A DNA stretch of 38,062 nt from a virus, in the IMG/VR virus record IMGVR_UViG_3300042503_002008, positions 1 to 38,062 of that record; one strand, written 5' to 3'. Every line of letters begins with the position of its first letter. The stretch's first letter is position 1. Of this stretch, positions 2,725 through 31,278 are shown one piece after another. The notes beneath the pieces are model-generated. The model did not search any database, had not been told where the DNA came from, and saw only the letters and a program-made list of their open reading frames with translations. A program made the position numbers and the translations under genes.

Positions 2725-3255
2725 ATGTACGAAGTTGCCTATGTCGCGCTGGCTTGGCTGGCGTCGGACCTTGTGACGGGCTTTGTGCACTGGGTGGAAG
2801 ATCGATACGGAAATCCCGCGTGGCCGGTCATTGGCAAGCACGTCATTGCGCCGAACATTCTGCATCACACAGATCAGCGGGCGTTTCTAGTCGGCGGTTT
2901 CTTTGAGCGGAACTGGACGACACTGTTGCCAGCACTGACGATTGCTGCTGGCTTTGCCTGTGTCGGCTGGTACTGGTTCGCTCTGGTGGCGGGGTTCTCG
3001 GCGTTTGCGAACGAAGTGCACGCGTGGAGTCACCAGAAGTGCAGCCGCGGTATCCGTGGTTTGCAGCTGCTGGGGCTGCTGTGTTCTCAGGAAGACCACG
3101 CGCGGCACCATGAACGCCCGTTTGACTGCTATTACTGCGTCATGACGGGCTATCTGAATCCAGTTCTGTCCTTCATTCGGTTTTGGCCCGGCCTGGAGCT
3201 GTTGCTCGGTTATCCGACCGGCATCTGGCCGCGCAAAGAAAGAGAGCACGCATGA
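2725..3255 (+). CDS. CarF/TMEM189 (Kua)-type lipid desaturase
   Basis: A 176-residue polytopic membrane protein whose histidine pattern matches the CarF/TMEM189 (PEDS1) lipid-desaturase family. Visible elements are VHWVED (H22), NILHH (H47, H48), NEVHAWSH (H99, H103) and EDHARHHERPFDCYYC (H125, H128, H129), then a TGYLNP turn. Eight histidines in this layout are the expected di-metal ligands. Characterised members introduce the vinyl-ether double bond of plasmalogens, acting on 1-O-alkyl ethanolamine phospholipids. Hydrophobic segments lie near residues 1-20, 65-95 and 143-163. AGGAGG at 2714-2719 selects ATG 2725 over the in-frame GTG at 2719. The 3' end overlaps the next gene by ATGA. The family call is firm; substrate and function in infection are unknown. 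It could be an auxiliary gene altering host membrane lipids. Confidence 0.85.
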   Translation: MYEVAYVALAWLASDLVTGFVHWVEDRYGNPAWPVIGKHVIAPNILHHTDQRAFLVGGFFERNWTTLLPALTIAAGFACVGWYWFALVAGFSAFANEVHAWSHQKCSRGIRGLQLLGLLCSQEDHARHHERPFDCYYCVMTGYLNPVLSFIRFWPGLELLLGYPTGIWPRKEREHA

Positions 3256-7476: not shown

Positions 7477-8068
7477 CCTAGCACATTTGACGCAAACAAC
7501 GTCTGATGTCGTCGGGCCGATTCAAGATGACGAGGCGTTGTTATTGTACGCGGTAATCAAATGCACGCACGCAACACATGTGCTTGAGGCAGGCGGGCTT
7601 GACGGCTACTCAGCGCGCAATTTTCTTGCTGCATTGGCGGGGTGTTCTGGCATCGTTTATACGGTTGACCCGATACCCGTGGTAAAACGCGGGCCAAATC
7701 ACGTAACAATTCAAAGCTGTATTTCCCAGGTTGATGTTGCCGCGCTGCCGCATTTAGATCTCGTGTTCTACGACTGTCACGTATTTGACGCGACGCTGGC
7801 GTTTCACGAAAAGGCTGTTTCGGCGGGAATCATAGACAGTCGGACGATAATCGCTATACACGACACCGGCTTACACCCGTGTCGCGCCAATGCAGACAGT
7901 GTCGAAGTTTCTCCTGGCTGCTGGGTGCACCAAGCGGTCGAACGGCGGCTTGTAAACAGTTTGGTTGAGCGCGGTTGGCACGCGGTGTGTATACATGCAG
8001 ACTGCGCGCTGCCGCTGCGGCACGGTTTGACGTTGTTGAAACAATTTTCGCCGTTACAAGTTGATTAG
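7463..8068 (+). CDS. Class I SAM-dependent methyltransferase
   Basis: 201 residues. VGPIQDDEALLLYAVIK leads into the SAM-binding motif I VLEAGGLDGYSARNF (residues 40-54), then VYTVDPIPV (acidic residue of motif II) and DLVFYDCHVFDATLAF with IIAIHDTGLHP, matching the Methyltransf_24 layout in which HDT follows a late strand. This group methylates sugars, small molecules or glycan ends. It overlaps the preceding gene by 14 bases and ends eight bases before the next ATG, so it is translated with the glycan genes. A-rich codon choice is slightly higher than in neighbours (for example aca, caa), perhaps showing separate acquisition. The acceptor is unknown. Confidence 0.8.
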   Translation: MTTYDLAHLTQTTSDVVGPIQDDEALLLYAVIKCTHATHVLEAGGLDGYSARNFLAALAGCSGIVYTVDPIPVVKRGPNHVTIQSCISQVDVAALPHLDLVFYDCHVFDATLAFHEKAVSAGIIDSRTIIAIHDTGLHPCRANADSVEVSPGCWVHQAVERRLVNSLVERGWHAVCIHADCALPLRHGLTLLKQFSPLQVD

Positions 8069-8075
8069 GCGCACT

Positions 8076-10196: not shown

Positions 10197-10197
10197 T

Positions 10198-11184
10198 ATG
10201 ACGGACGCCCCGCGCAAGGTCATTTTCCGTAACTTCCAAAGCCCAGGCGATCTCGTGATGCTGCTGTACGGCATCAAGAGTCTTCACGAGTCGCATCCCG
10301 GTAAATTCATTACTGACGTGCATTGCGGCGTCAAAGATATCTTTCTCGGCAATCCGCTGATCACTGATTTAGATCCGCTGGCAACCGACGTGTCGCTCAT
10401 CGAAGCCGACTATCCGCTGATCCATCGCAGCAATGATTACCCGGTGCGGTTTGTCGAGGCGTTCGGCGCCGCAATGGCCGAGAAACTGGGCGTCACGATC
10501 ACGCCAACGCGATTTCAGAGCGCGATTCACATTCTGCCCGAGGAGTACGGCTGGTTCTCCGCTGTGCGCGAGATTCTGGGCAAAGACGTGCCGTACTGGG
10601 TGCTAAACGCCGGGCACAAGTACGACTACACGGCTAAAGCATGGTCTTTCGAGCGGTACCAAGAACTCGTGGATCGCTGCTCGAACGTGTGGTTTGTGCA
10701 GGTCGGGTCGGGCGAGCACGCGCACCCAAAGCTAGAAGGCAAAAACCTGATCAACATGGTGGGCAAAACAGACGCCCGCCAGCTGATCCGCATGGTGCAT
10801 AATGCGTTCGGCGTGATCTCGGGCGTGAGTTTTCCGATGCACCTGGCGTACGCCGTGCCGCCGCATCCACGATTCAAGCGCTCCAGCCGCGCGAACATTA
10901 CACTTGCAGGCGGCCGTGAACCAGCGCATTGGGAGCATGGACCAAACCACCAATTTTTGCACACTTGCGGTATGCTGCCGTGCTGCCAAACTGGTGGGTG
11001 TTGGCGTAGTCGTGTGGTGCCGCTGCAAGACAACGACGACAAAGACGCCGCGCTGTGCTCGCGTCCGGTCGTTATGGCAAACGGCCAGTGGATTGGCGAG
11101 TGCATGGCGCTCATCACGGTCGATGACGTGGCAAAGCTGGTTGAACGGTACATGAGCTATCTGGATTACGAACCCAAGTTCTGA
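10198..11184 (+). CDS. GT9-family glycosyltransferase (heptosyltransferase-like)
   Basis: 328 residues from ATG 10198, one base after the previous stop. It opens IFRNFQSPGDLVMLLYGIKSL, the GT9 N-terminal acceptor-side motif, with a second Rossmann half at YWVLNAGHKYDYTAK. The nucleotide-sugar signature region NMVGKTDARQLIRMVHNAFGVISGVSFPMHLAYAV aligns with the heptosyltransferase motif, but the usual D-S-G before PMH is G-V-S-F here. A Cys-rich stretch (HTCGMLPCCQTGGC near residue 263-276, plus LCSRPV and GECM) may bind metal; it also occurs in a subgroup of proteobacterial and phage GT9 proteins. The enzyme would add a heptose or related sugar from a nucleotide-sugar. It contains GATATC-motif copy 4. 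Confidence 0.78.
   Translation: MTDAPRKVIFRNFQSPGDLVMLLYGIKSLHESHPGKFITDVHCGVKDIFLGNPLITDLDPLATDVSLIEADYPLIHRSNDYPVRFVEAFGAAMAEKLGVTITPTRFQSAIHILPEEYGWFSAVREILGKDVPYWVLNAGHKYDYTAKAWSFERYQELVDRCSNVWFVQVGSGEHAHPKLEGKNLINMVGKTDARQLIRMVHNAFGVISGVSFPMHLAYAVPPHPRFKRSSRANITLAGGREPAHWEHGPNHQFLHTCGMLPCCQTGGCWRSRVVPLQDNDDKDAALCSRPVVMANGQWIGECMALITVDDVAKLVERYMSYLDYEPKF
10333..10346 (+). repeat. Directional GATATC motif, copy 4 (least typical)
   Basis: AAAGATATCTTTCT in the GT9 gene (K-D-I-F). The only copy with TC instead of TG after the core; the 12 central bases AAAGATATCTTT form a perfect palindrome. Confidence 0.45.
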
Positions 11185-11194
11185 AGGAGCAGAG

Positions 11195-11701
11195 ATGGCA
11201 AACTCAGTCGATATTCGTTGGATGGAAGCCGCGTTGATTGCGGCGGCGAACTTCTCCGGCGATCCTCGGACACAAAACGGCGCGGTAATCGTGACGCACA
11301 GTGACGGCGGTTTCTCTGATCGTCACGTACTCGGCACGAACCATTTTCCAAAAAACATCGCCGTGACGCCCGAGCGGCTAGACTCGGCTGTAAAGCTCAA
11401 ATACATGCAGCACGCAGAAAGATCAGCAATCTATAGCGCAGCCGCGCTTGGAATGCCCACGCTTAAAGCCACGATGTATTGTCCGTGGTTTGCGTGCCTT
11501 GAATGCAGCAAAGCCATTATCGGTGCAGGTATCGCGCGTGTTGTCGGCTTGCGCAAGCCGCGGCTGCTTACGCCAGACCGATGGAGCGCTACAATTGCGG
11601 AAGCTGATGCGCTGTTGCACGAGGCCGGTGTTATCACTGACTTTCTGGAAGACGAAATTGGCGTCGAGATTCTGTTCAACGGCGAAAAGGTAGTGATGTG
11701 A
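11195..11701 (+). CDS. Deoxycytidylate-deaminase-like enzyme
   Basis: 168 residues, zinc-dependent cytidine/deoxycytidylate deaminase fold. Zinc and catalytic residues are HAE at 73-75 (QHAERSAIY) and C101-x2-C104 in CPWFACLEC, replacing the more usual PCxxC. The N-terminal helix and DPRTQNGAVIV strand match dCMP deaminases, in which dCMP is converted to dUMP to feed thymidylate synthesis. Without neighbouring nucleotide genes other than the HAD protein, a role in making an unusual base or nucleotide-sugar is equally possible. AAGGAG lies six bases before ATG 11195. It overlaps the following GTG start by GTGA. Confidence 0.82.
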   Translation: MANSVDIRWMEAALIAAANFSGDPRTQNGAVIVTHSDGGFSDRHVLGTNHFPKNIAVTPERLDSAVKLKYMQHAERSAIYSAAALGMPTLKATMYCPWFACLECSKAIIGAGIARVVGLRKPRLLTPDRWSATIAEADALLHEAGVITDFLEDEIGVEILFNGEKVVM

Positions 11702-12114
11702 CTCCACACCGTAAGACCGTCATCGCGCTGGACTTCGACCGCACGTTCACGAGCGACATTCCGTTTTGGCGGACGTTTGTGCTGCATGCGATGGAGCGCG
11801 GGCATGCGGTGTACTGTGTAACTGCTCGGCATGATAACGAGACAAACCGTAAACAGATCGAAGAGCTGTTCGGCCCGGTCGTGTTTCCGCAGCTGGGCGG
11901 CGTAATTTACACCCAGCACCAGTCCAAGCGGGCAATTGCGCAGGGTTTGGGCGTACGGGTCGACATCTGGATTGACGATATGCCCGAGGGTGTAGGCAAG
12001 CAATCCAAGCGCGACTTTCAAAAACACGAGTTACAGCACAAGGTTTACGAAGAGCTGCCTGTCTTCCAGCCCGACGTCGTGTGCCCTACGGAAGTCTGGA
12101 AACCGGCACAATAG
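11698..12114 (+). CDS. HAD-superfamily phosphatase
   Basis: 138 residues from GTG 11698, overlapping the deaminase stop. HAD motif I is ALDFDRTFT (D12 nucleophile, D14 acid), motif II VTAR near residue 42, motif IV WIDDMPE near residue 98; the cap is minimal. Such small phage HAD proteins hydrolyse phosphate esters, often nucleotides or sugar phosphates. Coupling to the deaminase hints that the two act on the same nucleotide pool, although 5'-nucleotidase activity is not demonstrable from sequence. The stop TAG (12112-12114) lies inside GATATC-motif copy 5, and a hairpin with a short T run follows. Confidence 0.8.
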   Translation: MTPHRKTVIALDFDRTFTSDIPFWRTFVLHAMERGHAVYCVTARHDNETNRKQIEELFGPVVFPQLGGVIYTQHQSKRAIAQGLGVRVDIWIDDMPEGVGKQSKRDFQKHELQHKVYEELPVFQPDVVCPTEVWKPAQ

Positions 12115-12124
12115 ATATCAATGT
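12111..12124 (+). repeat. Directional GATATC motif, copy 5
   Basis: ATAGATATCAATGT, overlapping the HAD gene stop and abutting the terminator-like hairpin, 39 bases before the UDP-galactopyranose mutase start. Mostly noncoding. Confidence 0.55.
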
Positions 12125-12148
12125 GCCGCGCTCCGCGGGCACAGTTTT
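12123..12148 (+). terminator. Terminator-like hairpin
   Basis: GTGCCGCG (12123-12130) pairs with CGCGGGCAC (12134-12142) with one bulged base, then AGTTTT. A short GC-rich stem plus four T is a weak intrinsic terminator signal between the HAD and mutase genes. Confidence 0.45.
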
Positions 12149-12162
12149 CATGGAGCTACGTC

Positions 12163-13257
12163 ATGGACGACGTTCTCATTGTGGGCAGCGGTATGTTCGG
12201 CGCCGTCTTTGCCCGGCAGTGCCTCGACGCTGGCAAATCTGTGCGCGTGCTGGAGCGCCGCGATCACGTTGCCGGAAACTGCTACACCAAGAACGTAGAC
12301 GGCATCGAGCAGCACGTCTACGGGCCGCACATCTTCCATACAAACAGTCCGAAGATCTGGGACTACGTTCGGCAGTTTGGCAGCTTCAACAACTTCGTGA
12401 ACAGGCCCAAGGTCAACTACCACAGCAAGCTGTATTCGTTTCCGATCAACCTGTTCACGCTCTACCAGTTGTGGAACGTCTCGACGCCGGAAGAAGCGCG
12501 CGCGGCCCTAGACAAAGTCCGCGTGCCTATCGCTGAGCCCCGGAACCTGGAAGAGTGGGCGCTGTCTCAGGTCGGCGAAGAGCTGTATCAGACGTTCATC
12601 TACGGCTACACCAAGAAGCAGTGGATGCGCGAGCCCCGCGAGCTGCCCGCGTCGATTATCAAGCGGCTGCCCATCCGGCTGAACTTCGACGACAACTACT
12701 TCACGGACCGGTACCAGGGTATTCCAGAAGCGGGCTACACCGCGCTGCTTGGTAATATGCTCGTCGGCGCGCGTATTGAGTTGGGCGTGGACTACCTTTT
12801 GGCGCGCGACTACTGGGACGCGCAGGCTAAAACCGTCGTGTTCACCGGCTGCCTCGACCAGTTCTACGGCTACCGGTACGGCCAGCTCGACTATCGAACG
12901 CTGCGGTTTGAGACATTGCGTGAAAACATCTCGGATTATCAAGGCAACGCGGTGATCAACTACACCGGCAGGGAGCCCTACACCCGCGTCGTTGAGCACA
13001 AGCACTTTGCGGGCGCGCAGACGCCGCACACGCTCGTCACGTGGGAGTACCCCGACGCCTGGCAGCCCAACAGCGTGCCGTACTACCCCATCAACGACGA
13101 CAAGAACAGCGCGCTTTACGCCCAGTACGCCGCCCTCGCCCGCCAAGAAACAAAATACCTCTTTGGTGGGAGACTGGCCGAGTTTAGATACTATGACATG
13201 CACCAGGTGATCGGCAGCGCGCTGACGTCGGCGGCGCAGTTTCTTGGAGTGAAATGA
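12163..13257 (+). CDS. glf: UDP-galactopyranose mutase
   Basis: 364 residues, normal length for the family. The FAD-binding Rossmann start is VGSGMFGAVFARQC with ERRDHVAGNCYTKNVDGIEQ after it. YGPHIFHTN contains the conserved substrate-side His. YTKKQW near residue 149 and the C-terminal RLAEFRYYDMHQVIG, which contacts flavin, are both family hallmarks. The enzyme interconverts UDP-galactopyranose and UDP-galactofuranose using reduced FAD in the cytoplasm, so the cassette can supply galactofuranose. GGAG at 12150-12153 selects ATG 12163. The end overlaps the next gene (TGATG). This is the most securely identified sugar enzyme here and shows that the phage changes or makes a galactofuranose-containing glycan. 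Confidence 0.95.
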   Translation: MDDVLIVGSGMFGAVFARQCLDAGKSVRVLERRDHVAGNCYTKNVDGIEQHVYGPHIFHTNSPKIWDYVRQFGSFNNFVNRPKVNYHSKLYSFPINLFTLYQLWNVSTPEEARAALDKVRVPIAEPRNLEEWALSQVGEELYQTFIYGYTKKQWMREPRELPASIIKRLPIRLNFDDNYFTDRYQGIPEAGYTALLGNMLVGARIELGVDYLLARDYWDAQAKTVVFTGCLDQFYGYRYGQLDYRTLRFETLRENISDYQGNAVINYTGREPYTRVVEHKHFAGAQTPHTLVTWEYPDAWQPNSVPYYPINDDKNSALYAQYAALARQETKYLFGGRLAEFRYYDMHQVIGSALTSAAQFLGVK

Positions 13258-14720
13258 TGGTCTCGTATGATTCGAGCAAGCTGTACGTTTGCGTGACGTA
13301 CACGCCGGAGTTTCAATCGCTTCTCGATAATCTCTGCACGTCGCTGACGCACCCCAACATCGAGATGCACGTCAACCGGGCTGTCTTGCAGACGCGCTAT
13401 GACGGCTTTCGCAGTCGCGGATGGTTTGAATGCCTGAAGCTCAAGCTGCAGTTCTTCTACGCCTTCTTTTCGAAGCTTCCGGACGGCGCTGTTGTCTGCT
13501 CAATCGACGCTGACATCCAGTTTTTTCAGCCGGAGCGGCTGTATGAGCTGAAGCAGCAACTCGACCGCTCGACGCTTGAATGTTACGGGCAGGCCGAATA
13601 CCAGACGCGTTGGATCGACAGGCCGAACACGGGTGTTGCCAACGGCGGGTTTTTCATGCTCAAGAAAACAGCGCGCGTGCTGGAATGGCTGCAGGCTGTT
13701 TTGGCGCAGAACTTCAATCGGCGCTTTCTGGGCGATCAGGAATATCTGAACCACTTTATGCGGCAGAAGCGCGTGCAGTATCAGCTGCTTCCGCCCCAGG
13801 CGTTTTTGCACGGCGGCCCAATCGTGGCAAACGATCTTGGCTTTATCGCGCCAAAACAGCTCGTGATGCACCACGCCACGTACTGTAAGACGGTCGAAGA
13901 GAAGCAGGCGCAGATGACGACGCTGCGGACAATGTGCGGGCTGGCGCCCGTGGACTGGCGCCGCGTGAAGAACACAAACCCGAACGTCGTTGCTTATGTC
14001 GACGGGCGGAACGACAACTCGTATACGCCCGACAAACAGTATGCGCTGGTGTTGTCGCGGTGCACCGAGGACGTGTCATGGGCGGCACAATGGAAAGACA
14101 CGCTCGACGTGTTCGTGTACAGCAAGTGCGGCGCGGCTGAACCCGCGTTCAAAGCGACGTGGCTGACGCTGCCCAACGTCGGCCGCGAATCGCACACATA
14201 CCTGGCGCACATCATCGACCACTACGACAACCTGCACGAGGTCACGATCTTTCTGCAGGGGCGGATCGACGACGCGCAGGCGTATCCGGCTAACCAGCTC
14301 ATGAAGTACATCGAGCCCGCCAAGAAAAACGGGTTCAGCGCGTCACACCTGATGCTGGTCAAGCCGTCGCACTGGGACAACATCAATTTCCTGGCAATCC
14401 CGAAGTACGCGCCGAAAGTGCGGTCCGGCGCCTTACGCATCAATAAAACGGGCTTGCTGGCTTTTGCGCACCGGCATTTCGGCAAGCTGCCGGTGTTAGC
14501 TGTGAGCACCTACACCGGGTGTTTTGCTGTTAGCCGCGAAGCCATCCAGAAGTACCCGAAGTCGTTCTACGTGCAGCTCCGGGATATCCTGGGCGACCAC
14601 AACGACCCTGAAGAGGGCCATTTTATGGAGCGGCTTTGGGCGCACATGTTTAGCGGCACCGCGTACGTGCCGGAACTGCTGGGTATTCCTGAAAACAAGC
14701 GCGATAAGTTTGTGTACTAG
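13257..14720 (+). CDS. GT-A glycosyltransferase fused to a DUF3431 domain
   Basis: 487 residues. Residues about 1-215 form a GT-A nucleotide-diphospho-sugar transferase: YVCVTYTPEFQSLL start, long first loop, and a DxD motif in CSIDADIQFF near residues 82-91, with NGGFFMLKK and GDQEYLNHF typical of GT77-like enzymes. Residues about 255-487 resemble DUF3431: YALVLSRCTEDVSWAAQW, LPNVGRESHTYLAHIIDHYD, VTIFLQGRIDD, and GCFAVSREAIQKYP. It shares this domain with the three-domain fusion at 8076, where DUF3431 is N-terminal, so the domain has been joined to two different transferases in one locus. ATG 13257 (GGAG at 13246-13249) is favoured over ATG 13254. Confidence 0.75.
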   Translation: MVSYDSSKLYVCVTYTPEFQSLLDNLCTSLTHPNIEMHVNRAVLQTRYDGFRSRGWFECLKLKLQFFYAFFSKLPDGAVVCSIDADIQFFQPERLYELKQQLDRSTLECYGQAEYQTRWIDRPNTGVANGGFFMLKKTARVLEWLQAVLAQNFNRRFLGDQEYLNHFMRQKRVQYQLLPPQAFLHGGPIVANDLGFIAPKQLVMHHATYCKTVEEKQAQMTTLRTMCGLAPVDWRRVKNTNPNVVAYVDGRNDNSYTPDKQYALVLSRCTEDVSWAAQWKDTLDVFVYSKCGAAEPAFKATWLTLPNVGRESHTYLAHIIDHYDNLHEVTIFLQGRIDDAQAYPANQLMKYIEPAKKNGFSASHLMLVKPSHWDNINFLAIPKYAPKVRSGALRINKTGLLAFAHRHFGKLPVLAVSTYTGCFAVSREAIQKYPKSFYVQLRDILGDHNDPEEGHFMERLWAHMFSGTAYVPELLGIPENKRDKFVY

Positions 14721-14721
14721 C

Positions 14722-15351
14722 ATGGCAATCGACTTTCAACGCGTTCCGGCGTTCTGCATCAACCTCGACACGCGGCCTGATCGCTGGGCGCAGATGGAGG
14801 CTGAATTCCAAAAAGTGCGCTGGCCGCTTTCACGCTGGCCCGCTGTGCGGCACGACAGCGCACCAGCTCCGAACGTTGTCAAAGAGCACGCAGGCGCGCT
14901 TGATAGTCACCGGCAGCTGTGGCAAAAATGCTTGGACGACAAACTCGACGTGCTGGCGGTGTTTGAAGACGACATCGTGTTGCCATCGAACTTCATTGAT
15001 ATCTTTGCGCGCGCGTCTGCGGAGCTACCCGCAAACTGGGCAATGTGGCACTTGCATTCTTCGCGCGCCAAGACTGCGCCCGCGGGTCAATATCTCGTGC
15101 GCATTCTTTCGTCGATGTGGGGCGCGCACGGCTATCTGATTCGGCCTGCGGCGTGTGCCGCGCTGTTGGCTATCCCTGGTTACGAGCCTGCGGATTATCG
15201 AATGACGAAAACGTATCTAAGCGCCGGTGGCCAGCCGTTGGGCACGGCGACGAGGTCGGCGCTGTGTTTTCAGCGCGGCGACGACAGCGATATCCCAGCT
15301 ACCGCGCAGTTACGCTTTTGGCGAGAGCAGCGGCAAAAATACTGCCGTTAA
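14722..15351 (+). CDS. GT25-family glycosyltransferase
   Basis: 209 residues starting one base after the previous stop. CINLDTRPDRWAQME at the N-terminus and VLAVFEDDIVLPSNF in the middle (DD of the GT25 signature) identify the lipooligosaccharide galactosyltransferase / LpsA-type family. SSMWGAHGYLIRPAACAAL matches the family's third conserved block. These enzymes transfer a hexose from a UDP-sugar to lipooligosaccharide or to hydroxylysine-type acceptors. It closes the glycan cassette; a 346-base gene-free region follows. Contains GATATC-motif copy 6 (F-I-D-I-F-A-R). Confidence 0.85.
   Translation: MAIDFQRVPAFCINLDTRPDRWAQMEAEFQKVRWPLSRWPAVRHDSAPAPNVVKEHAGALDSHRQLWQKCLDDKLDVLAVFEDDIVLPSNFIDIFARASAELPANWAMWHLHSSRAKTAPAGQYLVRILSSMWGAHGYLIRPAACAALLAIPGYEPADYRMTKTYLSAGGQPLGTATRSALCFQRGDDSDIPATAQLRFWREQRQKYCR
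14995..15008 (+). repeat. Directional GATATC motif, copy 6
   Basis: ATTGATATCTTTGC inside the GT25 gene. It extends to an 18-base identity with noncoding copy 2 (5611-5628), although no upstream complement exists here to form the same hairpin. Confidence 0.55.
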
Positions 15352-16720: not shown

Positions 16721-17944
16721 ATGGATGGCCTCTCCATTCTTGATCCGACAAACTGGCGCGTAGGCGGGCTGAAAGAGCACCCTGCGTACATTGTCGGCAA
16801 CGCGGCCGCCTGGCTTACAAAGGCTGGCGCTGTCGGAACAAATCACTATCTCACCGGGCGGCTCTATGTTGCGAAGAGCGGCTGGTTGCTGCTTTCGGTG
16901 CCCAATGCGCTTGTGCGCGGTGTGTTCGACGCCATGACTGCCACCGGCGCCGAGTTGCCCACGATGAGCGCCTTCAACGGCGAATCCGCGGACAAAGAGC
17001 TGCTCAACGCGCACATCTCGGTAATGACGGCCGAAGAGGTCGAACAGATCGGCGCAGACAAGATCAACGAACGCGGGCACAACTTTCATTACGCGCTGGG
17101 CCAGATCCGCGAGTTTTCGCCCAGGACTGAGACGCTGAGCCGCGTGTGGGCAATTCAGGTGGCGAGCCCTGAGTTGGCCGCCCTGCGCAAGAGCTACGGT
17201 CTGTCGGCGCTGCCCAACGGCGACCACCCGTTTCACATTACCGTGGCTGTCAGGCGCAAGAATGTGCTGGGGCAAAACGAAGTTGCCAAAGTAAATGGCA
17301 GCCGGGGCGCGCTCAAGGCGGCAGCCGATCACACGGTGACTTACGACTGCGGGTGCTCGGGGCCGTGTTCATGCCCTGATACCTGTATTTGCAAGCAAAG
17401 CGGCCGGTGTGGTTCGCGCAATAAAGCCGCGGCCAAAGAAGACGTACTTCACGGCGGCGCGGCGGATCACAAGCCCGATAGTGAATTCAATCCGGAGGCT
17501 CTCTCAGAGGGCAAAACGCATGAGCGCGAACACACGGACAACGATCAAATCGCCAAGGAAATTGCCGCGGATCACCTGTCCGAAGACCCCGCCTACTACA
17601 AAAAAGTCCGACAAATAGAGAAGGGAAGCAGCGTCTATTTCAACCAGGCGCGGCAGATGTTCAATCCGTTCACGGTGTCTGGCCCGCAGATTCCGTATGA
17701 CCACAATCGGCCGGTGTTCGAAAACATTCAAAACCAGCTGGCAGAGGTAAAACGCCGCGGAGATTTCATGCTCCAGGCCGATCGCAACCATCAGATCTGG
17801 CGCGCGCAACTGGATCCGAATTACCGCTATCAACTTGCTCTTCAAGCGTTTCGAGGTGAACTGCCCCAGCCCGGTCTCACGGACCAGCTGTTTGAACGAT
17901 ATGGCGACGGAATGCTCGCCTCGTTACAGCCGAGGAGGCCGTGA
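16721..17944 (+). CDS. 2H-phosphoesterase-like protein with Cys-rich linker
   Basis: 407 residues. The first 185 residues contain two H-x-[ST] motifs 74 residues apart, NAHISVM (H98, S100) and PFHITVAV (H172, T174), the signature of 2H phosphoesterases, which open or process 2',3'-cyclic phosphates and related bonds in RNA and nucleotides. A compact Cys-rich stretch follows at residues 210-230 with seven cysteines (C-x-C-x3-C-x-C-x3-C-x-C-x5-C), a likely metal-binding module. The remaining 170 residues are charged and helical (EIAADHLSEDPAYYKKV) without a known domain. RNA repair, cyclic-oligonucleotide cleavage or ADP-ribose-type chemistry would all fit the fold. No strong ribosome site precedes ATG 16721. 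Confidence 0.6.
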   Translation: MDGLSILDPTNWRVGGLKEHPAYIVGNAAAWLTKAGAVGTNHYLTGRLYVAKSGWLLLSVPNALVRGVFDAMTATGAELPTMSAFNGESADKELLNAHISVMTAEEVEQIGADKINERGHNFHYALGQIREFSPRTETLSRVWAIQVASPELAALRKSYGLSALPNGDHPFHITVAVRRKNVLGQNEVAKVNGSRGALKAAADHTVTYDCGCSGPCSCPDTCICKQSGRCGSRNKAAAKEDVLHGGAADHKPDSEFNPEALSEGKTHEREHTDNDQIAKEIAADHLSEDPAYYKKVRQIEKGSSVYFNQARQMFNPFTVSGPQIPYDHNRPVFENIQNQLAEVKRRGDFMLQADRNHQIWRAQLDPNYRYQLALQAFRGELPQPGLTDQLFERYGDGMLASLQPRRP

Positions 17945-19300: not shown

Positions 19301-19672
19301 ATGGCCATGACAAAGGTCGACGCAATTCGCGCAGAAATGCGGCTGCTCAATGCCGAAGCTGACGCTGTTCCCGGCGTGTCGCTCACGAACTGGAGCAGCC
19401 CTGAGTTTTGGACCATGGTCGTTTCTGCGGTCACAAACCTCGTAACTGTGGCTGTCGTGCTGGGCTGGCTTAGCTCGACTGACGCCGAGACCGTCACTAA
19501 GGCGCTGTCGGCACTGATCGGCGCCGGACAGGTCATCATCGTCAACGGCCTGATTGTGTGGCGGTTTATCTCCGCGCGCGTTCAGGTGAAGCAGGCTATG
19601 ATCACAGCCCGCTACAACTACATGGCGGCGGTGACGACTGAGCAGATGCGGCTTAATATGAGAGCCCGGTGA
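19301..19672 (+). CDS. Two-helix membrane protein, possible holin or antiholin
   Basis: 123 residues; AGGAG at 19290-19294 is six bases from ATG 19301. A charged N-terminal helix (AIRAEMRLLNAEADAV) precedes two hydrophobic segments at about residues 37-58 (TMVVSAVTNLVTVAVVLGWL) and 67-88 (ALSALIGAGQVIIVNGLIVW), followed by a basic helix (FISARVQVKQ). The arrangement PEFW then hydrophobic helix, short STDAETV loop and a second Gly-containing helix is common in small phage membrane proteins annotated as holins. A 68-base gap upstream could hold a promoter. Together with the gene at 15698 the region may have two pore-forming partners. Confidence 0.55.
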   Translation: MAMTKVDAIRAEMRLLNAEADAVPGVSLTNWSSPEFWTMVVSAVTNLVTVAVVLGWLSSTDAETVTKALSALIGAGQVIIVNGLIVWRFISARVQVKQAMITARYNYMAAVTTEQMRLNMRAR

Positions 19673-20076
19673 TGACAGACAATGATCTCCAGGAGCGGAT
19701 TCGAGTTTCTCCCGCGCTGCAGGCTCTGCAAAACCAACTCCAGTCGGAGATTAGTTTTCGCGCTCCAGCCGGATTTGACTTCAATCCGCTCTTGGTGATC
19801 TCTGTCATCTCAATCATCGTTCAAATTGTCATTCATTGTCGTGAGAGCCGTGACGAGCAAAGTGTGCGCGCGGCTATGCGAGACCTGCGCGCACTGCCTT
19901 TGCGGCAGCAATTTCGGCTTCGGCGTGCGTTGACCGGCTTATGGCGCGAGAACTATCCGCGCACGACAACACACCAAGAAAACCCACTGATCGACGCGGT
20001 ATACCAGCTCAGCGATAGCGCGGATGACGCCGCGATCGACGAGTTGCTGTGGCTGGCGGCGCAACACAAATCATGA
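19672..20076 (+). CDS. Hypothetical single-span membrane protein
   Basis: 134 residues; ATG 19672 overlaps the previous stop (TGATG). Residues 1-37 are soluble, one transmembrane span follows at about 38-55 (FNPLLVISVISIIVQIVIHC), and the C-terminal half is basic and helical, with LRALPLRQQFRLRRAL. The basic region just after the span suggests it faces the cytoplasm. Coupled to the preceding two-helix protein, so the pair may work together, but no family is recognised. Confidence 0.55.
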   Translation: MTDNDLQERIRVSPALQALQNQLQSEISFRAPAGFDFNPLLVISVISIIVQIVIHCRESRDEQSVRAAMRDLRALPLRQQFRLRRALTGLWRENYPRTTTHQENPLIDAVYQLSDSADDAAIDELLWLAAQHKS

Positions 20077-20104: not shown

Positions 20105-20920
20105 ATGGCAAGGATGCCATCAAAACACCAGCATGTACTGCCTACAGGAGAGATCCTAAAAAAGCTGTACGGCTTTGGGTATTTCGGCACGAAGACTTGG
20201 CAACAGGTCAAAGGGCTCAAAGGCGCAGACCTTGATCACGCCGTGCGCGAATATCAGCGTTTTCACGGTTTAGACCCCAACGGCTCTGTCGGGCCTGAAA
20301 CAGCAAGCGTGCTTTCTCGGCGGCGGTGCGGGTTGCCCGATTTCAATTTTTCGGCGGGCGACGCGGTCTGCAAGTGGCCGCATAAAGAGATCACGTACTT
20401 GCCAAAGATCGTGCTGCCGGGCGTGTCTGCCGAGCAGGTTGTACAGGCTTACGACATTGCTTTTAGCCAGTGGGCAGCGGTGTGCAATTTGGAGCCGAAA
20501 CGCGTCACTGCCGCAAACAAGGCAAACATTCTGGCGCGGTCTGGGAAGGGCAAGAAGAACGGCCTAGACGATCGAGGCGGCACGTTAGCGTGGAGTGAAC
20601 TGCCGTGCGACGTCACAGAAAACGTTCAGCTTGATCAGATGTTTGACGAGGCCGAGGATTGGAGCTTCAATATGGCCGTGGCCGTGATGTGTCACGAACT
20701 CGGTCACGCATTAGGGCTGCCGCATCTCGCCAAGGGCAACCTGATGGCGCCGTACTACGATCCAAACATCACAGAACCGCAGGCAGGCGACATCCGCGAA
20801 ATTCAAGATCTGTATGGCAAACGCGCGCAGCCATATGACGCGATCAAGGACGCGTCGGTGCATCTTGGCGGGACGATCACCATCAATGGCATGCCATACG
20901 TCCTCGTACCAAAAACTTGA
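20105..20920 (+). CDS. Matrixin metalloprotease with peptidoglycan-binding propeptide
   Basis: 271 residues. Residues 10-72 form a PG_binding_1-type helical domain (AVREYQRFHGLDPNGSVGPE). Immediately after is RRRCGLPDF (C75), the same layout as the cysteine switch PRCGVPD of matrix metalloprotease propeptides, in which the Cys blocks the catalytic zinc. The catalytic domain follows, with the matrixin zinc site HELGHALGLPH (H197, E198, H201, H207) and Met-turn NLMAPYY (M214). Only the extension after about residue 240 (HLGGTITINGMPYVLV) is outside the family plan. No signal peptide is seen, so holin-dependent release or virion packaging would be required to reach the envelope. It may attack surface-layer or envelope proteins, or mature virion proteins. 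AAGGA at 20090-20094 precedes ATG 20105 by ten bases. Confidence 0.88.
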   Translation: MARMPSKHQHVLPTGEILKKLYGFGYFGTKTWQQVKGLKGADLDHAVREYQRFHGLDPNGSVGPETASVLSRRRCGLPDFNFSAGDAVCKWPHKEITYLPKIVLPGVSAEQVVQAYDIAFSQWAAVCNLEPKRVTAANKANILARSGKGKKNGLDDRGGTLAWSELPCDVTENVQLDQMFDEAEDWSFNMAVAVMCHELGHALGLPHLAKGNLMAPYYDPNITEPQAGDIREIQDLYGKRAQPYDAIKDASVHLGGTITINGMPYVLVPKT

Positions 20921-20968: not shown

Positions 20969-21247
20969 ATGACTGGTTTCCAAAAGCTCGCTCTTCTTCT
21001 CTTTGCCGCAGTTGTTCTTTTTTCGTACGGCAAAGATATCTATGCCTGGCTCAAGCTGAAGCTTGCCAGTGTGCAGCTGCCCGCGGTCCCGGGTCGTCCG
21101 GCCGTCGCAAACGACGTGGTTGGCGATCTTGTTACCGTTGCTGGTATGCGCGACCGCCTGGCCGCCGAGGGCTGTCGAGAAGGCGCTGACGCGTGTTCTG
21201 CGCTGCTCAAAGTCTTGATCGATCACAAGCATCCGCACGTAGGGTGA
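20969..21247 (+). CDS. Small N-terminally anchored protein
   Basis: 92 residues with AAGGAGG five bases before ATG 20969. Hydrophobic residues 5-19 (QKLALLLFAAVVLFSYG) form a signal anchor. The rest is soluble with two cysteines (GCREGADACSALL) that could form a disulfide if exported. No known domain. It follows the matrixin gene and contains GATATC-motif copy 8 near its start (K-D-I-Y-A-W). Confidence 0.6.
   Translation: MTGFQKLALLLFAAVVLFSYGKDIYAWLKLKLASVQLPAVPGRPAVANDVVGDLVTVAGMRDRLAAEGCREGADACSALLKVLIDHKHPHVG
21032..21045 (+). repeat. Directional GATATC motif, copy 8
   Basis: AAAGATATCTATGC, codons 22-26 of the gene at 20969 (K-D-I-Y-A). Confidence 0.5.
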
Positions 21248-22286: not shown

Positions 22287-23309
22287 ATGTCTCCTGAAAT
22301 GCTTTTTCATTCTCCGCTCGACATCCGAAAAGCCTACGAAACAGGCTTTGTCGGAGCGATATGCGATCCAGCGCGCACTGAAGAGCTGAAAGCAGAGATC
22401 GCGCGACTCGGTGGCGTACCTGACGGCGCGCTGGCGTGCTCGCGGTTTGGGCTTGAAGAAACAGGAAAAGACAAACTCACGCTCCTGTTCATGGAGATCT
22501 TCAAGCTCTACCCGGATTGTTTGCCCGGCGGCGCGCAGGGTCGCGGCGATTGCGTGAGCTGGTCGACCCGTAATGCGTGTCTTGGCTCAATGTGCGCCGA
22601 GATCAACAGCGGCGTGCCCGACGAAGAGAGCGGCCGCCTTGAAGGCGCGCCACAGCTGAGTCCCGAGGCAATCGCTAACGGCGTGTTGAGCACGGAAGCG
22701 TTTTACAATTGGCGTTCGCATTCGGGTGACGGCTGGTATTGTTCGGACGCCGCCCGCGTGGCGATGACAAAGTCTGGGCTCTGGCTTCGCAAGAACTACG
22801 CCGAACTCAATCTCGACCTCACGACGTATTCGGCGAAAAACGCCGGGCGGTACGGCGGATCGCCGCCTCCAGCGTCATGGCTGGAAATTGGGCGCGACCA
22901 TCTGGTGCGCACGTCAGCGGTCCTCAAGAGCTACGAAGAACTTCGCGACATGCTCGCGAATGGTTACGGCATTAGCTCGTGCGGTAGCGAGGGATTCTCC
23001 GACCAGCGCGATGCAAATGGCGTCAGCCGCAGGTCTGGCTCGTGGGCGCACGCGATGGCGTACCTGGCCTGTGATGATCGTCCGGAAATCATCAAGCTGT
23101 ACAAAGAACCGCTGGTGTTAGTTCAGAACAGCTGGGGGAATTGGAACGAGGGGCCGCGCAGGATTTACGGCACCAACTTTAACATCCCAATTGGTTCGTT
23201 CTGGTCCCGCTGGAGCGATCTCAGGAACCGCGATATGATCGCGTTCTCCAGCGTTATGGGCTGGCCGCGACAGAAGCTGAAGAGCCACGGCGCACTTGGT
23301 AACATTTGA
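22287..23309 (+). CDS. Papain-like cysteine peptidase (C1 type)
   Basis: 340 residues. Catalytic elements of the papain fold are present in order: GRGDCVSWSTRNA (C89 nucleophile, preceded by a glycine-rich loop), GSWAHAMAYL (H255) and VLVQNSWGNWNEGP (N281), where QNSWG is the classical C1 signature. No signal peptide or propeptide inhibitor domain is evident; the first 75 residues could serve that purpose. Such enzymes cleave proteins. With the matrixin gene nearby, the region encodes two unrelated proteases, consistent with attack on envelope proteins or virion maturation. An oxyanion Gln upstream of the Cys, as in cellular papains, is plausible at Q84 (GGAQGRGDC). The gene is first after the GC hairpin at 22233. 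Confidence 0.8.
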   Translation: MSPEMLFHSPLDIRKAYETGFVGAICDPARTEELKAEIARLGGVPDGALACSRFGLEETGKDKLTLLFMEIFKLYPDCLPGGAQGRGDCVSWSTRNACLGSMCAEINSGVPDEESGRLEGAPQLSPEAIANGVLSTEAFYNWRSHSGDGWYCSDAARVAMTKSGLWLRKNYAELNLDLTTYSAKNAGRYGGSPPPASWLEIGRDHLVRTSAVLKSYEELRDMLANGYGISSCGSEGFSDQRDANGVSRRSGSWAHAMAYLACDDRPEIIKLYKEPLVLVQNSWGNWNEGPRRIYGTNFNIPIGSFWSRWSDLRNRDMIAFSSVMGWPRQKLKSHGALGNI

Positions 23310-25941: not shown

Positions 25942-28900
25942 ATGCCAGATTCGATTCTTCCTGCGCCCGCTCAGCCTCAACAGCGCGCGTTTGGCGATAT
26001 CGGCGCCATTCGCACCAACATCTTCGATCGAGCGCTACAAAGCGCCTCGACGCTTGAGCCTGTTAAGAACGACCTGCACACGCTGCAGCTCTCTGGTGTG
26101 CAATACAGCGGACCAGAGACGTTCACTAAGGCAGATCAGAAAAGAGCTATTCTGACTGGCAGGTCGTTGCAGCGTAGGCTGACCGGCACGTGGAACCTGG
26201 TCGATAATGTAACCGGGCAGACCATTTCTCGGCGGCAGACGACACTGGCGCATGTGCCGTACCTTACGGACTCTGGTACGTTCGTAAACAAGGGCGTTGA
26301 ATACACCCTGGCGCACCAGATGCGGCTGAAACCAGGCGTGTACACGCGCGAGAAAGATAACGGCGAGCTGGAAGCGCACGTTAACGTGTTGCCCGGTAAG
26401 GGCCGCATGCACCGGTACTTCCTGGATCCGAAAACCGGCGTGTTTAAGGTGCAGCTCGGGCAGGCAAACATTCCGCTCATGCCGTTGCTCAAATCTCTCG
26501 GCGCCAGCGACCAAGATATTCGCGCGGCATGGGGAAACGAGATCACAGCAGTCAACATGGAGAAGGGTGATGCGGGCACGCTGGAAAAGCTGTATCAGCG
26601 GCTTGTGTCGCGGCAAGTCCCTGATCTTGACGCCACGGGCAAGCAGAAAGCCCTTGCCGATGAGTTTGCCCGCATGGAGCTTGATGAGAACGTCACGCGC
26701 CGAACGCTTGGCGCTCCACACAAGAACCTAACGCCAGAAGCCATTCTTACCATCACGAAGAAGCTGATCGCGCTCAACCGCAAAGAAGTCGATCCAGACG
26801 ACCGCGACAGCATGCCGTATCAGCACATCGTTGGTCCAGAAGACCTGATTGCCGAGCGCTTCACAAAAGATCGCCAGACACTGCGCGGTTTGCTTTGGAA
26901 AGCCACGGCACGCAAAAATCTTGATCATGTTCCAACGGGTGTGTTTAACAAAGCCATCTCGTCGGCACTGATTGGCTCGGGATTGGGTTCAAGCCTGGAA
27001 GAAATCAATCCGGCTGAGATTCTCGATCATCAGGCGCGCGTGACCCGCATGGGCGAAGGCGGTATCGGCTCGCTTGACGCCGTGCCCGCGGACGCCCGCA
27101 GCGTACAGCCGAGCCATCTTGGTTTCGTCGACTTCTTGCGCACTCCCGAGAGCGGCAAGGTGGGCGTCGACATGCGTTTTGCCAGCGGGGCCAAGAAAGG
27201 TTCGGACGGCAAACTGTATACGCCGGTCGTCGATACCCACACCGGCCAGACAACATACAAGACGCCCGAAGAACTGGCTGACATGCCGCTGGCGTTCCCG
27301 GGAGAAGAGCACAGTGATCTCCCGCAAGTTGCCGCGCTCGTTGGCGGCAAACTCAAATACGTGCCGCGCGAGCAGGCTCGATATGCCCTGCCGCACATGG
27401 ACAACACGTTTTCAAGTCTCGCCAATCTTGTGCCGATGAAGAGCATGATGAAGGGGCACCGCGTAATCATGTGTGCGCGCATGTTTACGCAAGCGTTGCC
27501 GCTTGTGAACGCGGAAGCGCCGCTTGTTCAAAACGCTCTAGCTGATGACTCAAGCAAGTCGCATGACGACGTAGTGGGCACAACACTTGGTGCAGTCAAA
27601 GCGCCCGACCACGCGATGGTCGAGTCGGTCACGCCAGACGGCATCGTGTTGCGCGACCGTAACGGCAAGCGCCAAACGATCGACTTGTACAACAACCACC
27701 CGTTCAACCGGAAGACGTTCTGGCATCAGACGCCGACCGTCAATCCTGGCGACGTTGTGAAGCCCGGGCAGCTGCTGGCACACTCGAACTTCACTGATCA
27801 GCAGGGCACCGCCGCGCTTGGTATGAACATGCGCACTGCGTACTTGCCGTTTCAAGGCAAGAACTATGAAGACGCCGTGGTAATCAGCGAGTCGGCCGCC
27901 AAGCGCTTGACCAGTCAACACATGTACCAGCACGAAGCTGAGTGGGATGACACGTCAAAGATCGGCAAGAAAGCGTTTATCTCGTTGTTCCCGGCCGAGT
28001 ACGACAAGAAGCTACTCGACAACTTTGATGACCAAGGCGCCATCAAGCGGGGTACCGTTGTCAACCACGGCGACCCGCTCATCCTTCAGGCAAAAGAACG
28101 CGAGACGACATACGGCAAAGTGCACCGCGGCCGCGCCGGAAGTTTCTCTAACGACACGGTCACATGGGATCACCATTCGCCCGGTGTTGTCACAGACGTT
28201 GAGCACACCGACAAGGGCGTCAGCGTTGTCGTGAAAAGCATGGCAGAGATGCAGGTCGGCGATAAGATGACCGGTCGTTTTGGCGACAAGGGCGTCGTGG
28301 CGGACATCATTCCCGATCACCGCATGCCGCACGACAAAGACGGCAACCCGTTTGAAATTCTGGTCAGTCCGCTGGGATTGATCAGTCGCGTGAACCCTGC
28401 GCAAGCGATTGAAACTGCGCTTGGCAAAGTCGCTGCAAAGACTGGGCAGGGTTACAAACTCAAAGACTTCGACTCTTCAAACGATCTCGTAGACTTTGCC
28501 CAGAAAGAGCTTGGGAAGCACGGCCTCTCTGATACTGAGGACGTCGTTGACCCGGAAACCGGTCGTAAGATTAAGGGCGTGTTGACCGGTAGCCGGTACT
28601 TCATGAAGCTGCACCACACGGCCGAGGCAAAGGGCCAGGGCCGCGCGATGGGCAGCTATACCGCGGAAGGTACTCCGGCCAAGGGCGGCAGTGAAGGCGC
28701 TAAGCGCGTTGGCATGCTCGATCTTGGCGCGCTGCTCAGTCACGGCGCCGGAAAAGTGATCCGCGACGCCAAAATGGTGAGAGGGCAGGCAAACCCCGAG
28801 TACTGGTCGCAATTCATGGCTGGTTACTCGGCTCCGTTGCCGAAGATCCCGCATGTGTACGAAAAGTTCGTGTCGCAGCTGCAGGCGTCGGGTATTAACC

Positions 28901-30315
28901 CTGTCCGTACCGGCACAAAGACGCAGCTGATGGCGTTGACAGACAAAGACGTCGACTCGCTCGCTGGCGACCGTGAGATCAAAAACTCCGAAACGGTGGA
29001 TTGGAAAGGCCGACTGAAGCCCATATCTGGCGGCCTGTTTGACGAGTCGTTGACCGGCGGACATAGCGGCAATCGCTGGTCAAAGATATCTTTGCACGAG
29101 CCTATGCCCAACCCTGTGATGGAAGAACCCATCCGGCGCGTTCTGGGGCTTACTGAAAAGCAGTTCCGCGGCATTCTGGCCGGGCAAGTGCCGTTGCTTG
29201 ATAAGACCGGCCCAGAGGCGATCAAGCACGCGTTGTCCCGCATCGACCTGCCGAAGGCGATTAATCAGGCGCGAGAAGATATCAAGTCCGGGCGCAAGAC
29301 GCTCCGCGACGCTGCTGTGCGCAAGCTGGGGTACCTTAAGAGCGCGGAGACCACGGGCGTGCATCCAAGCGATTGGATGCTCACGAAAATGCCTGTGCTC
29401 CCGCCGTTGTTCCGGCCAGTTTCGACCATGGGCGCAAAGAAGCTCCCCCTCGTGGCCGACGCGAACTACCTCTACAAAGAACTGCTTGACGCGAACAGCG
29501 CGCTCAAAGAGACCGCCGGGGCTTTCAGCGATTACGGCGACGAGCGGCTGAACCTGTACGACTCCATGAAAGCCGTTTCTGGCTTGGGTGACCCGATGCA
29601 GCCCAAGAACCAAGAACGCCGCGTGCAGGGCTTTTTGTCGCACATCTTTGGCTCGTCGCCCAAGTTCGGCACCGTGCAGCGCAAGTTGCTTTCGACAACG
29701 ACGGACTTGGTGGGCCGCGCGGTCATTACACCCAATCCAGACCTGGATATGGACGAGGTAGCGCTCCCCGAAGACAAAGCCTGGGAAGTGTACAAGCCGT
29801 TTGTTGTCCGCGGGCTGGTCCGCCGTGGTTTACCGCGGATGCAAGCTCTCCAGGCTGTTGAAGACCGCAATAAATCGGCTTACGCTGAGCTGAATACGCA
29901 AATGTCGTCACGGCCGATCGTGATTAACCGTGCGCCGGTTCTACACCGATACGGTATGATGGCGTTTTATCCGAAGTTGACGAAGAATCACGTGATGGAG
30001 GTTAATCCGGTCATTACCAAGGGTTTCGGCGCGGACTTTGACGGCGACGCGATGCAGTATCACGTTCCGTCGACAGAGGACGCCGCGCAAGAAGCTGTCG
30101 AAAAGATGCTGCCCAGCAAGAATCTTTTCTCGGTATCGACGTTCAAGGCGCACTACACGCCGAACAAGGATTACCAAACCGGCGTGTATCTGGCGACCAG
30201 TCGGATTGATAAGAAGTCACCGCCAAAGGTGTATCAATCACGTCAAGATGCGATCAAGGCTTACCATCGCGGGGAAATCGACGTGGATACCCCTGTGCAC
30301 ATCATTGAGAGCTAA
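25942..30315 (+). CDS. DNA-dependent RNA polymerase, beta fused to N-terminal half of beta'
   Basis: 1457 residues. Beta-like blocks come first: NMRTAYLPFQGKNYEDAVVI (about 630), VGDKMTGRFGDKGVV (about 772), SPLGLISRVNPAQ (about 810) and GGSEGAKRVGMLDLGALL (about 915). The chain continues into beta': ETVDWKGRLKPISGGLFD (about 1015), DWMLTKMPVLPPLFRP (about 1143), RPIVINRAPVLHRYGMMAF (about 1325), and the catalytic loop GADFDGDAMQYHVP with D1365, D1367 and D1369, the Mg-binding aspartates. The stop comes soon after (HIIES), near E. coli beta' residue 560. Beta is shorter than the cellular form, and the N-terminal zinc-finger cysteines of beta' are missing. It must pair with the C-terminal beta' protein at 31279. 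No alpha, omega or sigma gene is visible. A virion or late polymerase is plausible. Confidence 0.95.
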   Translation: MPDSILPAPAQPQQRAFGDIGAIRTNIFDRALQSASTLEPVKNDLHTLQLSGVQYSGPETFTKADQKRAILTGRSLQRRLTGTWNLVDNVTGQTISRRQTTLAHVPYLTDSGTFVNKGVEYTLAHQMRLKPGVYTREKDNGELEAHVNVLPGKGRMHRYFLDPKTGVFKVQLGQANIPLMPLLKSLGASDQDIRAAWGNEITAVNMEKGDAGTLEKLYQRLVSRQVPDLDATGKQKALADEFARMELDENVTRRTLGAPHKNLTPEAILTITKKLIALNRKEVDPDDRDSMPYQHIVGPEDLIAERFTKDRQTLRGLLWKATARKNLDHVPTGVFNKAISSALIGSGLGSSLEEINPAEILDHQARVTRMGEGGIGSLDAVPADARSVQPSHLGFVDFLRTPESGKVGVDMRFASGAKKGSDGKLYTPVVDTHTGQTTYKTPEELADMPLAFPGEEHSDLPQVAALVGGKLKYVPREQARYALPHMDNTFSSLANLVPMKSMMKGHRVIMCARMFTQALPLVNAEAPLVQNALADDSSKSHDDVVGTTLGAVKAPDHAMVESVTPDGIVLRDRNGKRQTIDLYNNHPFNRKTFWHQTPTVNPGDVVKPGQLLAHSNFTDQQGTAALGMNMRTAYLPFQGKNYEDAVVISESAAKRLTSQHMYQHEAEWDDTSKIGKKAFISLFPAEYDKKLLDNFDDQGAIKRGTVVNHGDPLILQAKERETTYGKVHRGRAGSFSNDTVTWDHHSPGVVTDVEHTDKGVSVVVKSMAEMQVGDKMTGRFGDKGVVADIIPDHRMPHDKDGNPFEILVSPLGLISRVNPAQAIETALGKVAAKTGQGYKLKDFDSSNDLVDFAQKELGKHGLSDTEDVVDPETGRKIKGVLTGSRYFMKLHHTAEAKGQGRAMGSYTAEGTPAKGGSEGAKRVGMLDLGALLSHGAGKVIRDAKMVRGQANPEYWSQFMAGYSAPLPKIPHVYEKFVSQLQASGINPVRTGTKTQLMALTDKDVDSLAGDREIKNSETVDWKGRLKPISGGLFDESLTGGHSGNRWSKISLHEPMPNPVMEEPIRRVLGLTEKQFRGILAGQVPLLDKTGPEAIKHALSRIDLPKAINQAREDIKSGRKTLRDAAVRKLGYLKSAETTGVHPSDWMLTKMPVLPPLFRPVSTMGAKKLPLVADANYLYKELLDANSALKETAGAFSDYGDERLNLYDSMKAVSGLGDPMQPKNQERRVQGFLSHIFGSSPKFGTVQRKLLSTTTDLVGRAVITPNPDLDMDEVALPEDKAWEVYKPFVVRGLVRRGLPRMQALQAVEDRNKSAYAELNTQMSSRPIVINRAPVLHRYGMMAFYPKLTKNHVMEVNPVITKGFGADFDGDAMQYHVPSTEDAAQEAVEKMLPSKNLFSVSTFKAHYTPNKDYQTGVYLATSRIDKKSPPKVYQSRQDAIKAYHRGEIDVDTPVHIIES
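29082..29095 (+). repeat. Directional GATATC motif, copy 10
   Basis: AAAGATATCTTTGC in the polymerase gene, read in the second coding frame as S-K-I-S-L, not D-I. Confidence 0.6.
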
Positions 30316-31036: not shown

Positions 31037-31276
31037 GTGCGCGTAAAGTTGCAGCACAACCTGCAACCCCACGAACAAAAGGCCCACAGCATCGTCATTG
31101 AAGACGACGCTGGCAATCCGATTTTTGTGGCGTTGCAGCTTGATGAGTCGATTGTTTACGCAGATGCGCGGGAGCCGGACTTCCACGCTATGTTGCGCGC
31201 GGCTGGAGTCGATAAGACTGTCGCTGTAACAGAAGTGCGGCCGAAGCCAATGCAGAACTTGCTCTGGACGCCGTGA
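31037..31276 (+). CDS. Small hypothetical protein
   Basis: 79 residues from GTG 31037, two bases after the previous stop. A beta-rich start, HSIVIEDDAGNPIFVALQLD, is followed by a helix (DFHAMLRAAGV) and a basic end. Family not recognised. It overlaps the GTG candidate start of the beta' C-terminal gene (GTGA), so it is probably translated with it. Confidence 0.5.
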   Translation: MRVKLQHNLQPHEQKAHSIVIEDDAGNPIFVALQLDESIVYADAREPDFHAMLRAAGVDKTVAVTEVRPKPMQNLLWTP

Positions 31277-31278
31277 CC

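Follow-up and report, generated by a model that had tools for sequence, protein, structure and literature searches.

We classify the product of a 271-aa viral gene as a matrixin and, more precisely, as a leaderless, phage-borne cysteine-switch zymogen. The gene was confirmed as an open reading frame on the plus strand at 20105..20920 (ATG 20105, stop 20920; ORF, Pfam and phmmer evidence) of the window, by which we mean the whole stretch of 38,062 nucleotides analysed, from the virus record IMGVR_UViG_3300042503_002008. Its propeptide domain (MMP-propeptide / PG_binding_1 fold) covers residues 19-70 (20159..20314, plus strand; Pfam PG_binding_1, E 6.9e-9, above the cut-off) and is followed by the switch peptide RRRCGLPD (residues 72-79; 20318..20341, plus strand), which extends to RRRCGLPDF at residues 72-80 and contains the switch cysteine C75 (codon 20327-20329). 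The M10 catalytic domain spans residues 90-238 (20372..20818, plus strand; Pfam Peptidase_M10, PF00413, E 2.5e-19, 70.2 bits against a cut-off of 24) and includes the zinc motif HELGHALGLPH (residues 197-207; 20693..20725, plus strand) and the Met-turn LMAP (residues 213-216; 20741..20752, plus strand). A C-terminal tail ending in PYVLVPKT (20870..20917, plus strand) is kept in the close clade and has low model confidence. The succession of propeptide domain, R-C-G-L-P-D and catalytic domain is the layout of cysteine-switch zymogens of the MMP type.

In animal MMPs the RCGxPD switch is textbook knowledge. The initial annotation had proposed a matrixin with this type of switch in a virus, with the propeptide domain, RRRCGLPDF, HELGHALGLPH and Met-turn in the order of the animal enzymes; both proposals agree with the Pfam assignments, with the fold matches described below and with the best PDB sequence match, human proMMP-1 (phmmer, E 2.2e-17, query 37-247). 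The proMMP-1 alignment extends across the propeptide, the switch (RRCGLPDF versus PRCGVPDV) and the catalytic domain including the zinc motif. Because this match is accompanied by the constancy of RCGLPD and C75 across the viral relatives, we do not attribute the resemblance to chance. The likeness to vertebrate proMMP-1, -2, -3, -9 and -10 (MEROPS M10A) comprises the propeptide, R-C-G-x-P-D, HExxHxxGxxH, the Met-turn and the fold of the whole zymogen. In contrast to these enzymes, the phage matrixin has no leader, carries extra cysteines and leaves no room for a hemopexin domain in its 271 aa; the residue before R-C-G is Arg instead of the Pro of animal MMPs. Two further traits of an animal-type MMP (M10A) are not found in the window protein, namely a secretory signal peptide, as judged by crude hydropathy, and the structural-zinc ligands, the positions that we take to be the structural-zinc histidines of MMPs falling on W163 and M179 in the proMMP-1 alignment.

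An AlphaFold2 model was built on a 56-row alignment (pLDDT 82.3, pTM 0.77), with pLDDT below 50 at residues 80-85. The propeptide domain has model helices at residues 14-23, 41-53 and 64-70, the last of which lies five residues before C75, so that the switch cysteine directly follows a propeptide helix, as had been suggested from the sequence. In a comparison by Foldseek and VIA-align, zymogens ranked at the top, a likeness to be read with the caveat that AlphaFold may have been trained on proMMPs. The first 14 VIA rows are chains of MMP-2, -9, -1, -3 and -10 with the propeptide in their residue range (not all of them titled 'pro'), with Z of 22.6-24.3, 205-221 aligned residues and rmsd of 2.1-3.2 Å; they superpose on the model from residue 9-16 to residue 237-243. 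Karilysin, propeptide included, follows in row 15, and Z ranged from 19.9 to 24.3 among the matches listed (50 entries, MMPs and karilysin). Because the superposition covers both domains, propeptide and catalytic domain are placed together as in the latent animal enzymes. Sequence, conservation and the superposed model together suggest that C75 would cap the catalytic zinc held by H197, H201 and H207.

Two IMG/VR scans yielded 80 viral loci (here given L numbers), those of the second scan being the best 80 of 82 relatives. By shared neighbours, 68 of the 80 form one lineage, with listed identities to the window protein of 60-78% except for the truncated L047 at 89%. RCGLPD was found in all 68; one search pattern of the first scan lay on the switch itself, and those of the later scans did not. 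The 56-row alignment consists of the window protein and 55 of the 80 loci, five rows being distant, and leaves out near-duplicates, L047 (truncated) and the weakly matching L077-L083. All 56 rows share C75, P78, C127 and the residues of the zinc motif (H197, E198, H201 and H207), and M214 of the Met-turn is present in 54, with Leu in the other two.

Two further IMG/VR scans used deeper alignments and patterns placed in the catalytic domain alone, and returned the best 80 of 93 and of 108 relatives. From three scans (best 80 of 82, 93 and 108) we assembled a set of 20 proteins, composed of the window protein and those of 19 divergent contigs. Pairwise identity in this set is 26-66% with a median of 34%, the close pairs being L217/L219 (66%) and L075/L222 (57%), and the M10 profile is above its cut-off in 19 of the 20 proteins (L223 is below). 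The alignment places a switch cysteine in 20/20. Pro stands at position +3 from it in 18 proteins (Ser in L240, His in L296) and Asp or Glu at +4 in 19 (Gly in L240), the switch motif of L240 being degenerate, CGISG. The MMP-type zymogen layout of the initial annotation is kept across viral proteins that are only 26-66% identical, whereas its reading of the N-terminal domain as peptidoglycan-binding fares less well, as discussed below. The switch cysteine is also the sole cysteine present in all 20 proteins; C127 occurs in 17, C89 in 12 and C168 in 11. Since it is constant and has no constant partner, it is not kept for a disulfide, and zinc ligation is the simplest reason for its retention; in these alignments it behaves like a zinc ligand.

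Matrixin-like viral proteins without the switch, of other builds, exist as well (L077-L083 and L227). L077-L083 are weak matches that lack the RCGxPD layout, three of them tape measure-like and the rest of another build; these loci and the tape measure-like L227 were excluded from the set of 20. The proteins read as tape measure-like from their sequences (L077, 2314-2598; L078, 10001-10285; L083, 10001-10213; L227, 5928-8960) contain a matrixin-like HExxHxxGxxH segment in their C-terminal part.

Three divergent lineages have very little sequence ahead of the switch cysteine: 38 residues in L074, 10 in L298 and 11 in L240, with no propeptide domain recognised. Only 0, 92 and 3 bases, respectively, separate the matrixin from the end of the upstream gene, which leaves no room for such a domain. 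That the cysteine persists where no propeptide domain can be recognised shows what selection retains of the latch. The phage matrixins offer biochemistry small, leaderless and naturally minimal cysteine-switch enzymes, L298 having just ten residues before its cysteine.

A crude hydropathy scan, with starts chosen by the analyst, revealed no hydrophobic leader in any protein of the set of 20; within the first 46 residues, the hydropathy of 12-residue stretches averaged 1.59 at most. A second trait concerns the extra cysteines C89 (codon 20369..20371, plus strand) and C168 (codon 20606..20608, plus strand), which we propose as disulfide partners from their joint presence: both occur in 11 of the 20 proteins, neither in eight and one alone in a single case (L289), a coupling with a Fisher p of 7e-5 when kinship is ignored. 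A poorly resolved tree requires 5 and 6 state changes for C89 and C168, respectively, and holds one usable pair for an independent-pairs test, by which the coupling is not demonstrable. The coupled cysteines likely form a disulfide, which suggests that the working enzyme acts outside the reducing cytosol.

From these features we infer that the window matrixin is latent, which the sequence and the model make likely. The propeptide domain would lay R-R-R-C75-G-L-P-D across the active site, where C75 would cap the zinc. Because no export leader is visible, the protein would be synthesized in the host cytosol, where the protease would have to be kept off by the latch. It would then leave the cytoplasm, most likely through a phage membrane-lesion protein during lysis. 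Outside, the zinc could be freed by proteolysis of the propeptide or by thiol oxidation at C75, and a C89-C168 disulfide may stabilise the enzyme, which would cut envelope or surface proteins and thereby help release. That the matrixin is both a leaderless zymogen latched in the cytosol and, once released, an agent of lysis has in our estimate a little less than an even chance. The earlier suggestion of a timing device for lysis or entry is plausible. The retention of the switch in diverse viral contigs suggests that phages use latent proteases, perhaps to open host cells. If the matrixin does act in lysis, a zymogen protease would join the means by which phages are known to open cells.

The gene neighbourhood provides suggestive evidence for such a role. 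Relatives of a small holin-like protein with two TM segments, the proposed exit partner (19301..19672, plus strand; Phage_holin_10, E 0.0024, 18.3 bits, below the cut-off of 27), are present in 68/68 close loci. The immediate upstream neighbour, a 135-aa protein with one hydrophobic stretch (19669..20076, plus strand; hydropathy), has relatives in 63/68, and the downstream neighbour, a 92-aa protein with an N-terminal hydrophobic segment (20969..21247, plus strand; hydropathy), in 66/68, some of these counts being limited by contig ends. The same gene block encodes a papain-like cysteine protease (22287..23309, plus strand; motifs and fold; relatives in 64/68), with the motifs GDC..H..NSWG, Asn being replaced by Gln in 2/11 rows. 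It had no match in Pfam or, by sequence profile, in PDB, and was matched by fold alone: a search with its model (pLDDT 69) gave xylellain first, followed by cathepsins and papains. This protease may or may not act with the matrixin. A 2H phosphoesterase domain joined to DUF5661 is encoded at 16721-17944 of the window and in 67/68 close loci.

In the divergent lineages, a small TM gene overlaps the matrixin start or sits within 4 bases of it in L218, L221, L247, L074 and L076. An immediate upstream small TM gene was counted for 7/19 matrixins versus 57/343 other genes there (Fisher p 0.034), a modest enrichment, such a gene being missing in 12/19. PHROG holin matches were weak for three proteins (E 0.0019-0.048); none was obtained for the TM protein of L221, and Pfam gave no match for those of L218, L221 and L247. 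Eleven related records are 194-205 kb long, one of them ending in a repeat of its start. In each, the single place matched by PG_binding_1 is the matrixin gene (nine over and two under the cut-off). A profile search of these 11 records, confined to a few lysin families, detected no SLT, Amidase_2, Phage_lysozyme, M15_4 or CHAP. M23, also covered, gave matches that occurred in all 11 records below the cut-off, and 20 of the 21 M23 rows fall in ORFs of 631-671 or 1459-1487 aa, which are RNA polymerase subunit sizes (assigned by size).

Downstream of the matrixin, eight divergent contigs encode proteins of 430-754 aa that blastp links into a single family (22-67% identity, E of 2e-6 or better): L289 (6837-8129), L296 (7170-8681), L298 (7015-8556), L247 (2441-4195), L075 (1150-2652), L222 (7869-9410), L221 (9735-11369) and L048 (3446-5710). 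The neighbour in L305 was not linked to this family by blastp, and the family has no Pfam match.

The main rival to a role in lysis is a virion-borne entry protease, packaged as a zymogen and unlatched at infection, which would cut surface proteins or the S-layer to let the tail or DNA pass. The absence of a leader in the 20 proteins suits it, and in L074 the matrixin gene is flanked by those of a tape measure and of a collagen-like tail fibre, a position that is also compatible with a virion role. The matrixin-like segments within the tape measure-like proteins of L077, L078, L083 and L227 point the same way, as does Salmonella phage Arash, where the annotation assigns structural proteins to several genes close to the RNA polymerase. 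The window gene, however, stands amid small membrane-protein genes with no recognised tail gene adjoining, and several divergent lineages have replication genes or proteins with leader-like starts as neighbours, as read from their sequences. On this evidence we consider a function in entry somewhat unlikely.

Another possibility is an intracellular processing enzyme that matures phage or host proteins in the cytosol, with a switch that opens at a set time. The lack of a leader and the papain-like protease encoded nearby would be in keeping with it; the coupled C89 and C168, on the other hand, point to an oxidising compartment, and we regard cytosolic processing as improbable.

We give a similarly low probability to the idea that the N-terminal domain anchors the enzyme to the wall by binding peptidoglycan, which would draw this domain away from the active site. 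Its basis is the Pfam label PG_binding_1, which the initial annotation had adopted as a 'PG-binding domain', together with weak PHROG endolysin matches over the N-terminal domain (E 0.0013-0.0014). However, the label is a family name, and the model superposes on MMP pro-forms with the propeptide included. The PG_binding_1 profile exceeds its cut-off in seven of the 20 viral proteins, falls short of it in five and is not listed for eight, whereas the cysteine is found in all. The label was therefore rejected as a sign of wall binding. Activation triggered by peptidoglycan, also put forward earlier, is likewise unsupported, since three lineages retain the cysteine without a recognisable domain. 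Pfam assigns the catalytic domain of the window matrixin to M10, a protease family, and finds no peptidoglycan-hydrolase domain in the protein.

The weakest alternative, a switch cysteine left over from a secreted cellular ancestor and without latching function, could appeal to L240, where the cysteine persists in a broken motif. Its presence in 20/20 proteins as little as 26% identical, among which other cysteines come and go, led us to reject a simple relic and makes any such reading highly improbable.

Matrixins related to the window protein were also sought outside IMG/VR. In INPHARED, no phage matched by protein at E 1e-3 or by DNA over window positions 13001-38000, and a scan of cellular genome contigs yielded two loci, both weak. 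Of 72,556 plasmid records, three had a matrixin match. Two of these, from Paenibacillus plasmids (NZ_CP068596 and NZ_CP145893), resemble the window protein in that PG_binding_1 (48.6 and 37.5 bits) is followed by RCGxPD and then by M10, and differ in their length of 572 and 598 aa, a repetitive C-terminal part and an identity of 27-30%. Since these proteins have the same architecture, the switch is not confined to phages. The third, from Pseudorhizobium, combines M10 with DUF4214 and has neither the propeptide domain nor the cysteine switch.

The cellular matrixins sampled in Planctomycetota and Pseudomonadota did not show the switch. A matrixin match was obtained in 69/392 sampled Planctomycetota genomes; among the matches listed, none begins before query residue 90 and so none reaches the switch, and a regular-expression search of 30 inspected loci found no RCGxPD at the right place. 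In Pseudomonadota, 4/398 genomes had a match at E 1e-5, and among those listed none begins before query residue 113 or reaches the switch. Three planctomycete loci (L100, L102 and L103) encode short M10-motif proteins with an N-terminal part and an upstream cysteine without RCGxPD. This cysteine is at the spacing of the switch in L102 (-125) and L103 (-122) and further off in L100 (-145), and is possibly a decayed or divergent switch.

Latent matrixins and related zymogens have been described from several systems. According to PMC6949598, MMPs of other animals, plants and fungi probably use the cysteine switch in the same way as those of vertebrates. Karilysin, the bacterial MMP of Tannerella forsythia, resembles the window protein as a latent bacterial matrixin (fold match with Z of 21.2) and differs from it in its short propeptide of 14 residues and in an aspartate switch in place of a cysteine (PMC6949598), a contrast that gives the cysteine switch of phage matrixins part of its interest. 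Mirolysin and myroilysin are bacterial metzincin zymogens latched by a cysteine (PMC6949598). They belong to the pappalysin and astacin families, have short pro-segments and are not matrixins.

A functional precedent is the Listeria pair Mtz/Tim, of phage origin, in which the metzincin Mtz increases phage lysis and whose genes in prophages are frequently downstream of holin-lysin genes (PMC8235301). In contrast to the window matrixin, Mtz has a Sec signal peptide and its partner is a separate TIMP-like lipoprotein; the term 'cysteine switch' is absent from the main text (PMC8235301). Proteins likened by fold only were listed in BFVD and include insect-virus MMPs (nudivirus, iridovirus, granulovirus, ascovirus and others), two uncultured Caudovirales proteins, the 'Zn-dependent protease' of Lactobacillus phage 3-521 and an uncharacterised protein of Synechococcus phage P60; the phage entries carry no described function beyond their names in that listing. 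We found no description of a leaderless phage cysteine-switch matrixin in the open-access literature, outside which most subscription journals lie. A broader generalization, that leaderless cysteine-latched matrixins are widespread phage 'protein lysins' replacing the endolysin in hosts with protein-rich walls and activated by escape from the cytosol, strikes us as doubtful.

The remainder of the window and the divergent contigs offer several minor observations. RNA polymerase is encoded at 25942-30315 and 31273-33153 of the window, where a 1457-aa ORF fuses beta with the N-terminal part of beta' and a second gene supplies the remaining beta'. The nearest sequenced relatives of this polymerase are those of Salmonella phage Arash and three Vibrio phages, at about 32-33% identity. 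A glycosyltransferase-like cluster with UDP-galactopyranose mutase occupies 8061-15351, as if the phage remodels surface sugars, and a gene with a lipid desaturase domain (PF10520, E 4.8e-40) is located at 2719-3255. Cytochrome-like proteins with sub-threshold Cytochrome_CBB3 matches are encoded near the matrixin in L074 (12213-12698, with CxxCH seen) and in L048 (5707-6924) and are one hint about the host. Others, towards planctomycete-type hosts, are the L074 tape measure, distant relatives of which (at most 31%) occur in 32/392 Planctomycetota genomes, a count made with no control phylum, and the approximately 500-aa neighbour of L298, which matches 3/392 of these genomes.
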